Program-made: the position numbers and the translations under genes
DNA from: Pseudomonas putida
GTDB lineage: Bacteria > Pseudomonadota > Gammaproteobacteria > Pseudomonadales > Pseudomonadaceae
Assembly (NCBI RefSeq): GCF_016406145.1
Contig: NZ_CP066306.1
Coordinates: 1,922,001 to 1,986,000 of the forward strand
DNA length: 64,000 nucleotides
Reading direction: 5' to 3'
Notes under the pieces: generated by a model
Told to the model about the DNA's origin: nothing
What the model saw: only the letters and a program-made list of their open reading frames with translations
Databases searched by the model: none
Shown here: in pieces, positions 46,326 through 49,595 of the stretch
Numbering within the stretch: the first letter of the stretch is position 1
Layout: every line of letters starts with the position of its first letter

Positions 46326-47309
46326 CTATCCGTGCGGATGCACGTGCCCGAACAGGCTTTGCGCCACCCGGACACGCTGTTCGGCATCTTCGGTCACACC
46401 GTCCTTGGCCAGCGCCTCGATGTGCGCCTCGATGGCATGAGTGCGTTGGGTCAGCCCGGTGTCGTTGGCGATCTGGATGTTCAGGCCAGGGCGGGCATTG
46501 AGTTCGAGAATCAATGGCCCCTTGTCCTGGTCCAGCACCATGTCCACACCGATGTAGCCCAGGCCGCACAGCTCATAGCAGCCGGCTGCCAGCTTCATGA
46601 AGCCGTCCCAGTTCGGCAGCTGTACGCCATCCACCGCATTGGTGGTGTCCGGATGCTTGCTGATGATGTTGTTCAGCCAGGTACCGCGCAGGGTCACTCC
46701 GGTGGCCAGGTCAACGCCTACACCGATGGCGCCCTGGTGCAGGTTGGCCTTGCCGCCGGACTGGCGGGTTGGCAGTCGCAACATGGCCATCACCGGGTAG
46801 CCCATCAGCACGATGATGCGGATGTCAGGCACGCCTTCGTAGCTGATGCTCTTGAAGATCTGGTCGGGAGTTACCCGGTACTCGATCAGCGCGCGGTCGC
46901 GATGCCCACCGAGCGAGTACAGGCCGGTAAGGATGCTGGAGACCTGATGCTCGATCTCTTCATGGCTGATTATCTTGCCGGAAACCGTGCGGTAGCGGTC
47001 CTCGAAGCGGTCGGCAATCACCAGAATGCCGTCACCGCCGGCCCCCTGGGCCGGCTTGATGACGAAGTCGTTGCGCCCGCCGATGATCTCGTGAAGCTTG
47101 TCGATCTGTTTCTCGGTCTCGATGATGCCGTACATTTCAGGCACGTGAATGCCCGCTGCCAGCGCACGCTCCTTGGTGATGATCTTGTCGTCGACGATCG
47201 GGTACAGGCTGCGCTTGTTGTACTTGAGCACATAGTCCGCATTGCGGCGGTTGATACCCATGATGCCCCGGGCCTCCAGGGCTTTCCACGTCTTGATAAG
47301 GCCAAACAT
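46326..47309 (-). CDS. RimK-like ATP-grasp ligase
   Basis: A 327-residue ATP-grasp protein related to RimK-type alpha-L-glutamate ligases. It has the ATP-binding Lys region VIKPAQGAGGDGI (about residues 85-97) and metal-binding ILELNARPGL (about 275-284), so it is probably active. No signal peptide; the site is cytoplasmic. It is the last gene of a three-gene operon with an exported retropepsin-like protease and a seven-helix membrane protein; its ATG overlaps the preceding stop by one base. Such ligases join amino acids to carboxylates or proteins. The substrate here is unknown. Confidence 0.87.
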   Translation of the reverse strand: MFGLIKTWKALEARGIMGINRRNADYVLKYNKRSLYPIVDDKIITKERALAAGIHVPEMYGIIETEKQIDKLHEIIGGRNDFVIKPAQGAGGDGILVIADRFEDRYRTVSGKIISHEEIEHQVSSILTGLYSLGGHRDRALIEYRVTPDQIFKSISYEGVPDIRIIVLMGYPVMAMLRLPTRQSGGKANLHQGAIGVGVDLATGVTLRGTWLNNIISKHPDTTNAVDGVQLPNWDGFMKLAAGCYELCGLGYIGVDMVLDQDKGPLILELNARPGLNIQIANDTGLTQRTHAIEAHIEALAKDGVTEDAEQRVRVAQSLFGHVHPHG

Positions 47310-48844
47310 CAGGCGTCAGCCTTCTTCAGAAATGCCTTGAAACGCACCAGCTCGGTCAGGCGGTAACCGCGGTAGCGACCCATTGCCAGCATGAAGCCCA
47401 CCAGGATCAGCAGTACCGCCGGGAAGGTGAAGACGAAGTACACCAGCTCCGGCACCATCATCAGCAGGTGGGCAAGCGACGCTGCGAACAGGGTGCCGAT
47501 CGCCACTTTCATGGCATGGCCACCGCCACGCTCTTCCCAGGTGATCGACAGGCGCTCGATGGTCATGGTCAGGATCACCATCGGGAACAGCGCCACCGAC
47601 AGGCCGCGCTCCAGCCCCAGCTTGTGGCTGAACAAGCTGATGGCGGCAATCAATACCACGACGAAGGTCAGTACCACCGAGAGGCGCGGCAGCATCTGCA
47701 GCTTGAGGTGCTCAAGGTAGGAGCGCAGCGACAAGCCCAATGCCGTGATGACGGTGAACAGCACGATGCCGAAGCCCAGCTGGGTCTCGCGGAACGCCAG
47801 GGCGATCAGTACCGGTGTGAACGTGCCCAGGGTCTGGATGCCGATCAGGTTGCGCAGGACCAGGATCACCAGCACGCCGATCGGGATCATCACCATGATC
47901 ATGAAGGTCTGCTGGGTCTGCAGCGGCAGGCCGTACAGCGAGTACTCGAGGAAGTCGGCGTCGGTGTTCTCGTCGGTCAGCTTGGCCAGGCGAATGGCGT
48001 TCATCTCGCTGTTGTTCATGCTGAAAGTGACGTTGGCCTTCTTGCCACCATCGACGGTGACCAGGTTGTCGTCACCGGTCCACCACAGCAGGCGGTCGCT
48101 GGGCAGGCCCTGCTCACCGGTGTCCGGGTTGAAGTACAGCCAGTCGCTGCCGTTGAAGCTGCGCAGCCAGAGCTCGGGGGACTGCGGCGTATCGGCCACC
48201 AGGCGGATGGTGTGGACCTTCTCCATCGGCACATGCGCTATCGACAGCAGCAGGTCGATGACCTGGGCCTTCTTCATGGGCGAGGTATCGCCGGCCAGCA
48301 GCAGCTTGACGTTGTCGTCGTTGAGGTTGTTGACCCGCTTGATGGTTTCGCTGACGAAGGTCTCGACGTCGGCAGAGTGCTGGCGGATCGGCGCCATCAG
48401 GGCTTCAGCGGCGATCTTCTCGGGGCCTTCTACCGCCAGGCTGTCACGGAAGGTCGGGCCTTTGATGGCGGCCTTTTCGCTGCTGTAGCGCTTGGTCAGC
48501 ACCAGGCGGTAGTAGAGGGTCTGGTTGCCGCTGGCGCGGCGGGCCGACCAGGTTACCTTGCGGTTGCCATCGGCGCGGTTGACGCTGACCCCGTAGTTGT
48601 TGGAGATGAAGCTCTCGTTGAGGCTGACATAGTCGCGGTTCAGCGGCGGTACAAACATTTGTACCTTGACCGGGTCCTTACTGCTGGCGACGAACTCGAC
48701 CTTTGCGTCGATGTTCCAAAGGTCGTCGGTTTCGTCTTCGGTCACCGGTATGCCGAGGAAGAAGATCTGATAAGCCGTGACCGCCACGCCCAGCAGCACC
48801 AGTACGGTGATCAGGACTTTCAGATGTAGGGTAAGAGAGCGCAT
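47309..48844 (-). CDS. Seven-helix membrane protein with inactive transglutaminase domain
   Basis: A 511-residue inner-membrane protein. One N-terminal helix (about residues 9-28) leads to a large periplasmic region. This ends in a transglutaminase-like domain (about 170-275) in which the catalytic Cys and His are missing; WLRSFNGSDWLYFNPDTGEQ matches the HAWVEV...W..FDPT block without the His. The C-terminal part has about seven helices (about 330-500). This is the inactive-transglutaminase/7TM family. It is genetically tied to a RimK-like ligase and a retropepsin-like protease, suggesting it senses or transmits a periplasmic signal. Function is not established. Confidence 0.87.
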   Translation of the reverse strand: MRSLTLHLKVLITVLVLLGVAVTAYQIFFLGIPVTEDETDDLWNIDAKVEFVASSKDPVKVQMFVPPLNRDYVSLNESFISNNYGVSVNRADGNRKVTWSARRASGNQTLYYRLVLTKRYSSEKAAIKGPTFRDSLAVEGPEKIAAEALMAPIRQHSADVETFVSETIKRVNNLNDDNVKLLLAGDTSPMKKAQVIDLLLSIAHVPMEKVHTIRLVADTPQSPELWLRSFNGSDWLYFNPDTGEQGLPSDRLLWWTGDDNLVTVDGGKKANVTFSMNNSEMNAIRLAKLTDENTDADFLEYSLYGLPLQTQQTFMIMVMIPIGVLVILVLRNLIGIQTLGTFTPVLIALAFRETQLGFGIVLFTVITALGLSLRSYLEHLKLQMLPRLSVVLTFVVVLIAAISLFSHKLGLERGLSVALFPMVILTMTIERLSITWEERGGGHAMKVAIGTLFAASLAHLLMMVPELVYFVFTFPAVLLILVGFMLAMGRYRGYRLTELVRFKAFLKKADA

Positions 48845-48849
48845 CGGGA

Positions 48850-49386
48850 TTACTCTGCTTTGGGAGCGTCGGTGGCACAGGCAGGTTTGCCGGCCGCGTA
48901 TTTAAGGCTTGGGTCGACCAGCGCGTCGAAGTGCTTGAGCGCCTCGGAACCGATCAGCAGCGGAAACTGGAATGCGCTGCGGTCGGTGAGGTTGACTTCG
49001 ATGGTGCGCAGAGCCTGGCCCATGCAGATTTCGAGTTCGATGACCGGGCGGGCGGTATAGGCCTTGCCTGATTCGGCATCATAGTCGCCTGCGCGGCGCT
49101 TGATCTTGCTGACCCGCGCCAACGGGCGTTCGATGGGGTGCGAATGGGCTGCGTCAATGGCCAGGTAGAAACGCACCCAGCTCTCGCCATTGCGCTTGAA
49201 GCGCTTGATGTCGCGGGCGCTCAGGGATGCGGTTTTGGCGCCGGTGTCGAGCTTGGCGGCCACTTCCAGGTCGAGGTCGCCAAGGCGAGCGTATTCGTTA
49301 AGACCGTACACGGTCTTGCCCGCCGCCTGGCCAAGGGCCGGCAGCAGGGTGAGGCATGACAGCAATAAAACGGGTGTAAGTCTCAT
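48850..49386 (-). CDS. Retropepsin-like periplasmic aspartic protease (RimB/DUF785 type)
   Basis: A 178-residue protein with a signal peptide (about 1-22, ending QA-A). The aspartyl protease active-site triplet is present as KLDTGAKTASL (Asp about residue 47), and the flap-side and closing motif FPLLIGSEALKHF fits the retropepsin fold. It is annotated elsewhere as ATP-dependent zinc protease, which looks wrong: no ATP or zinc site is visible. It is the first gene of the three-gene operon, 5 bases before the 7TM gene. A peptide or protein substrate in the periplasm is likely. Likely a homodimer. Confidence 0.85.
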   Translation of the reverse strand: MRLTPVLLLSCLTLLPALGQAAGKTVYGLNEYARLGDLDLEVAAKLDTGAKTASLSARDIKRFKRNGESWVRFYLAIDAAHSHPIERPLARVSKIKRRAGDYDAESGKAYTARPVIELEICMGQALRTIEVNLTDRSAFQFPLLIGSEALKHFDALVDPSLKYAAGKPACATDAPKAE

Positions 49387-49595
49387 AGTCCTGGCGCGGT
49401 GCTGTGCAAGGTTCGGGGCAAGGCGACTGGCAGGTACTGCGCAAGCTTCCTCGGTTCATCTGTCAACAACATGAATGGATGACAGAAACGCTATCCATAC
49501 TCCGTTGGAGGCGCGGCATTCTATCACGCCGATGCCTTGGCGCCAGCGCGTCGCGATCTGACAACGCCATCACTCACTAAGTTCGCGCTTAGACG

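Follow-up and report, generated by a model that had tools for sequence, protein, structure and literature searches.

The closest described relative of the locus treated here is the rlo operon of Pseudomonas aeruginosa, which was characterised by Lormand et al. (mBio 2025; PMC12239564). Its counterpart in Pseudomonas putida is examined within a stretch of 64,000 nucleotides (contig NZ_CP066306.1, positions 1,922,001 to 1,986,000 of the forward strand), hereafter the window, and is compared with relatives from other genomes. In P. aeruginosa, the operon controls growth at low osmolarity, tolerance of wall antibiotics and biofilm, and the cell-shape and beta-lactam phenotypes tied to it point to the cell wall (PMC12239564). 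Three redundant secreted RloA proteases are jointly required for growth without salt. In a protease-less strain, the deletion of rloB or of rloC fully restores saltless growth and partly relieves the other defects. The catalytic aspartate is required, and the RloA D48A variant does not rescue (PMC12239564). RloA forms a dimer of the retropepsin type, with a basic channel and a pocket that suits polyglutamate, and in vitro it cleaves polyglutamate as well as RpsF bearing eight glutamates. RloA is predicted by the authors to be periplasmic and RloC cytoplasmic (PMC12239564).

A second related pair is RimB-RimK, which shares with rlo a retropepsin-like protease, a RimK-type ligase and polyglutamate chemistry. 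RimK makes poly-alpha-glutamate, and its partner protease RimB stimulates this synthesis (PMC11957791). The pair differs from rlo in that RimB resides in the cytoplasm and no gene of the RloB type is present in the rim operon (PMC12239564).

The window carries three genes on its minus strand (table 1). In the list of open reading frames (ORFs), rloA and rloB are spaced by 5 bases (48845-48849), and rloB and rloC share one base (47309). This is the layout of the initial annotation, which had also described the same three protein types, an Asp47 within a DTG motif and a dead transglutaminase domain, all of them accurate on re-check. The Pfam matches of all three proteins exceed the curated cut-offs. 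Because the three also exceed the curated NCBIfam cut-offs, the operon is the rlo operon (rloA-rloB-rloC), that is, a Pseudomonas copy of the published system and already known. That members of three curated families are packed so closely, in an order that recurs, is no product of chance. The view that no function had been settled missed the characterisation of 2025, but it stands insofar as the physiological substrate and the mechanism are left open in that work as well (PMC12239564). Two of the checks once proposed for this locus already exist in print for P. aeruginosa: the aspartate mutant is D48A, and the deletions, in which loss of rloB or rloC suppresses the loss of the proteases, place the genes in one pathway and not in independent ones (PMC12239564).

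Co-occurrence of the three families was followed in 229 class-level genomes and a 398-genome phylum sample, from which 109 RloB loci were picked by the 7TM domain alone; a match of 20 bits in G077, under the cut-off, was excluded. Neighbours were assigned to RloA, RloB or RloC with home-made profiles built with members of both branches described below. Among the class-level genomes, RloB (at least 300 bits) is found in 38. RloC exceeds its cut-off in 37, all inside these 38, and in the remaining one (G033) a contig end leaves a partial RloC match; in locus L195, which belongs to G033, RloC is a contig-end fragment. PF05618, the family of the protease, is present in 104 of the 229 genomes, all 38 RloB genomes among them. 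Across the 109 loci, RloC adjoins RloB or is fused to it in 104. Loci of the RloC family with a dead catalytic triad were considered operon-type (93 of the 109). The rest comprises four dead-triad loci without RloC, two without a transglutaminase domain and ten with a live triad. In the operon-type loci, a protease gene on the same strand precedes RloB by no more than 134 bases in 90 cases (the exceptions being L015, L172 and L173). The ligase is always downstream where present, that is, in 92 cases, with L175 reaching the contig end. This near-total co-occurrence runs against the case in which the three genes would be independent in most genomes. The earlier suggestion of one route across the inner membrane is sustained by the co-occurrence and by the published epistasis. 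The direction once proposed, in which a signal would run linearly from the protease to the ligase, fits the epistasis less well than the removal of the RloB and RloC output by RloA. For the suggested cleavage of the 7TM protein by the protease no evidence was found, though no test aimed at it was made.

A sister branch retains a live-looking transglutaminase. The ten live-triad loci keep Cys, His and Asp, with RloC downstream or fused in all ten and a protease within 1.5 kb in none. This branch was enlarged by a scan of genome contigs with live-branch patterns, and the best 80 of 91 confirmed candidates (L076-L155) were retained. Nine of the ten live-triad loci duplicate members of this set, so that 81 unique sister-branch loci result. 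Cys and His are intact in all 80, and the Asp column shows Asp in 68, Gly in 8 and Cys in 4; the scan patterns, derived from the live-triad alignment, contain its His or Asp, so these residues are partly selected, whereas Cys is not. All four RloB proteins of this branch that were examined for it (the fusions of L031, L133 and L136, the last from Kangiella spongicola, and the separate protein of L119) exceed the Pfam cut-off for Transglut_core. The sister branch has the same 7TM and ligase families as rlo, in the same order or fused, and differs from it in the conserved Cys-His pair, in the absence of a protease within 1.5 kb of any of the 80 loci (69 of them with at least 1 kb of upstream DNA) and in the genes that follow. 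In L076-L155, RloC adjoins in 54 loci and is fused in 24, and none is seen in two, with less than 1 kb left downstream. Over the 81 unique loci, 25 RloB-RloC fusions and 54 separate RloC genes are counted. Where enough downstream DNA exists (63 loci), the genes that follow encode a TPR protein in 62 cases and, in 37, a putative outer-membrane protein. The TPR proteins form one similarity cluster, which the repeats may have merged. The outer-membrane assignment is provisional: signal-like starts were judged by eye, one beta-barrel match has 23.7 bits, below the cut-off of 28.7, and a second member gave no Pfam match. Besides RloC and these two, neighbour clusters reach 8 of 90 loci at most. The records of this branch are named Pseudomonadota, Nitrospirota, Myxococcota, Bacteroidota, Spirochaetota and Campylobacterota. 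Iyer et al. 2009 reportedly introduced these families and domain combinations, and novelty of the sister branch in print is not claimed.

The relatives suggest that RloB and RloC form one machine, which makes and moves a peptide that RloA clears. RloB and RloC seem to act together because natural fusions of the two exist in relatives, and their output must be cleared by RloA-type proteases because deletion of rloB or rloC suppresses protease loss. In our estimate there is an even chance that RloC synthesises a peptide rich in glutamate, which RloB conveys through the inner membrane and RloA degrades. In detail, RloC, presumably on the cytoplasmic face because ATP is there, would build or extend a glutamate-rich peptide, probably resembling poly-alpha-glutamate. 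The 7TM domain of RloB, in complex with RloC, would pass this product into the periplasm, where RloA may cut it up, as is suggested by the cleavage of polyglutamate in vitro by others. In the absence of the RloA proteases, the exported polyanion would accumulate and upset the osmotic and wall balance of the periplasm in dilute medium. Removal of RloB or RloC would then cure the growth defect because the source of the polyanion is gone. What we infer in this scheme is the export, the identity of the product and the reason why growth fails in dilute medium.

The protease of the window matches PF05618 with 155.5 bits and NF052262 with 342.3 bits (cut-off 280), carries a DTGA motif with Asp47 at the catalytic position and has a hydrophobic N-terminus of exported type, compatible with a signal peptide as judged by eye. 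Its closest solved structure by sequence is PDB 9g58 (E 2.3e-87), which is probably the P. fluorescens RloA crystal of PMC12239564. Within 90 RloA neighbours, the motif is DTGA in 68 and DSGA, in the same context, in 18; of the others, L171 has DTGI, L063 is unusual, and L009 and L177 have no motif, the latter being cut by a contig end. Against the RimB model the window protease reaches 81.5 bits, below the cut-off of 200, and the true RimB lies elsewhere in the genome. The three PF05618 proteins found in the P. putida genome (G000) are RloA1, RloA2 and RimB. None of the three is RloA3, in which this genome differs from P. aeruginosa. The gene order, the three families and the location of RloA2 beside creB are as in P. 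aeruginosa (PMC12239564).

The same chemistry could serve another purpose, in which RloC, with RloB, adds glutamate tails to a specific envelope protein or a lipid-linked carrier and RloA trims them, the harm arising from excess modification of an envelope factor, which might be a wall enzyme. RimK and RimB act in this way on RpsF (PMC12239564, PMC11957791), the cleavage of RpsF with eight glutamates by RloA is in line with it, and the cell-shape and beta-lactam phenotypes indicate the wall (PMC12239564). However, with RloC predicted in the cytoplasm and RloA in the periplasm, tagging would be needed before or during export, and in the sister branch the only frequent neighbours are RloC and the TPR and putative outer-membrane proteins, with all other clusters at or below 8 of 90 loci. 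Tail addition is considered unlikely, though it is the alternative to which we give most weight.

RloB of the window matches PF14400 with 163.4 bits and PF14402 with 327.7 bits, and NF052267 with 1073.4 bits (cut-off 900). RloB proteins with 97% identity to it bear the name Pseudomonas. It consists of one N-terminal hydrophobic helix, a transglutaminase-like domain at about residues 40-282 and the 7TM domain PF14402 at residues 260-505. The columns of the transglutaminase Cys, His and Asp are P, E and N in the window genome (L029), so all three residues of the active triad are lost, also in comparison with the periplasmic transglutaminase TgpA (6g49). Transglut_core gave no match in this protein at E 0.001. 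At E of 0.001 or less, Foldseek gave four matches, three of them to chains of 3isr and one to 3kd4, entries that both bear the title putative protease, and VIA on the 7TM part returned NqrD and ALMT rows, which are weak. In the proposed export scheme, the dead domain would probably be a periplasmic platform for binding or docking. RloB could instead be a receptor-like regulator: RloA would cleave RloB or a ligand of the dead domain, and RloB would switch RloC from the outside. A dead enzyme domain, for which a periplasmic orientation is predicted (PMC12239564), suits a receptor, and the RloB-RloC fusions are also compatible with a sensor-effector pair. This is nevertheless improbable, given that loss of RloB or of RloC each fully restores saltless growth of the protease mutant and that the pocket of RloA suits polyglutamate (PMC12239564). 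Two loci (L161 and L162), in addition, have the 7TM domain and RloC without a transglutaminase domain.

RloC of the window matches PF14397 with 330.5 bits and TIGR02291 with 567.7 bits (cut-off 314.2). All five of its Pfam matches are ATP-grasp families, among them the broader RimK domain (40.3 bits, cut-off 21), but the cut-offs of the RimK family itself are not reached (TIGR00768, 52.5 bits versus 143.4; the S6 ligase PRK10446, 22.3 versus 331). In phmmer, the RimK structures 5zct and 4iwx are matched weakly. The conserved ATP-grasp positions are intact, and D256, E269 and N271 align with the metal motif of RimK, from which we take their presumed role. Poly-gamma-glutamate systems (PgsBCA/CapBCA, with a hydrolase) employ a Mur-ligase-like synthase, which is of another fold. 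RloC, with ATP-grasp matches exclusively, does not belong to these synthases, and the likeness is one of working logic, as proposed: a cytoplasmic amide ligase, a membrane export partner and an outside enzyme that cuts the polymer.

The name of the RloC family in Pfam, "Sugar-transfer associated ATP-grasp", leads to a further alternative, in which RloC would ligate an amino acid or a peptide onto a precursor (sugar or lipid), RloB would flip this precursor and RloA would act on its amino-acid part. A suppressor screen for exopolysaccharide work gave transposon hits in PA1766, PA1767 and PA1768 (PMC7314104), which also favours it. The substrate channel of RloA and its cleavage activity indicate polyglutamate instead (PMC12239564), and the sister-branch neighbourhoods contain, apart from the three named clusters, only small ones that are unnamed and at most 8 of 90 loci in size. 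A sugar or lipid precursor is considered very improbable.

The evolution of the family was examined in a tree of the 7TM domain alone, with 77 chosen rows out of 195 aligned and the short row of L039 dropped. Four groups are separated: the operon type with a support of 82, the live-enzyme branch with 92, and the types without RloC and without a transglutaminase with 100 each. The live or dead state of the transglutaminase changes once on this tree, and the link between dead domain and protease is weak as statistics because it reflects one evolutionary split and not repeated evidence. That the aspartic protease took over the function of a live transglutaminase (the protease is upstream in 0 of 10 live but 90 of 97 dead loci) was considered and, with a single split, is kept as an idea only. 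The comparative result worth following is composed of the fusions, the live-enzyme sister branch beside envelope genes and the recurrent core of 7TM domain and ligase. Tentatively, and with less than even confidence, the RloB 7TM domain and RloC can be regarded as the core of machines for the synthesis and export of peptide polymers, a widespread class driven by ATP-grasp enzymes, in which the core is constant and the periplasmic module is swapped. The swapped modules would be a dead transglutaminase and a separate retropepsin in rlo, a live transglutaminase with the TPR and putative outer-membrane proteins in the sister branch, and no transglutaminase in L161 and L162; in rlo, the polymer would be destroyed in the periplasm and not processed or sent outside. 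The fusions and the sister branch beside envelope genes turn this into a testable claim, namely that a peptide polymer is made by a ligase which is coupled to a membrane conduit. If true, bacteria would have a new way of placing poly-amino acids into their envelope, and it would be clear why cells depend on the proteases only where RloB and RloC are present.

Table 1. Coordinates of the rlo genes in the window and of related features in other loci.
Feature	Position	Strand	Length	Description	Basis
rloA	window 48850..49386	-	178 aa	retropepsin-like aspartic protease	ORF; PF05618, NF052262
rloB	window 47309..48844	-	511 aa	transglutaminase-like and 7TM domains	ORF; PF14400, PF14402, NF052267
rloC	window 46326..47309	-	327 aa	RimK-related ATP-grasp ligase	ORF; PF14397, TIGR02291
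AlgU-type look-alike	window 49557-49584	-		GAACTT-N17-TCAGA, ~170-200 bases 5' of rloA	
RloA2	L045 9679-10296 (G000)			adjoins CreB, arrangement as reported for P. aeruginosa (PMC12239564)	
CreB	L045 8798-9520 (G000)			response regulator adjoining RloA2	
RimB	L046 9327-9866 (G000)			protease of the RimB family	RimB model, 287.9 bits (cut-off 200)
RloB-RloC fusions	L031 6475-8991; L128, L129, L133-L147, L149-L155		~800-890 aa	Cys-His intact	

In the respective search for promoters, no sigma-70-type promoter was found. GAACTT-N17-TCAGA, which we take to be the consensus of AlgU, an envelope-stress sigma factor, has its sole match in the window upstream of rloA (table 1); 0.34 matches are expected in the window, and 30 of 100 shuffles have at least one. 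A similar pattern is absent upstream of rloA in all 49 loci checked, including 14 same-family relatives with 450 upstream bases; this set contains some duplicates and some loci with less than 220 upstream bases, and L029, also included, is too short to reach the site. Control of rloA by the envelope-stress sigma factor was dropped, as the site is not conserved.

Some minor observations concern RloB-like proteins. In Shewanella, loss of an inactive transglutaminase leads to over-production of membrane vesicles (PMC12096838). In the sister branch, Gly or Cys stands at the Asp column of the triad, with Cys and His kept, in L114, L117, L118, L127-L129, L131, L133, L134, L143, L149 and L150. Genome G033 has both an operon-type locus (L035) and a live-enzyme locus (L195), and with 6% contamination listed it may be a mixed bin. 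In L161 and L162, RloB consists of the 7TM domain only (in L162 also by Pfam) and RloC follows; in L162, this RloB is preceded by a protein of about 315 amino acids with a signal-like start and no Pfam match. Finally, in the RloB-like proteins of L036-L039 the triad is altered and RloC does not adjoin, and in L037 and L039 a PF05618 gene adjoins on the opposite strand.
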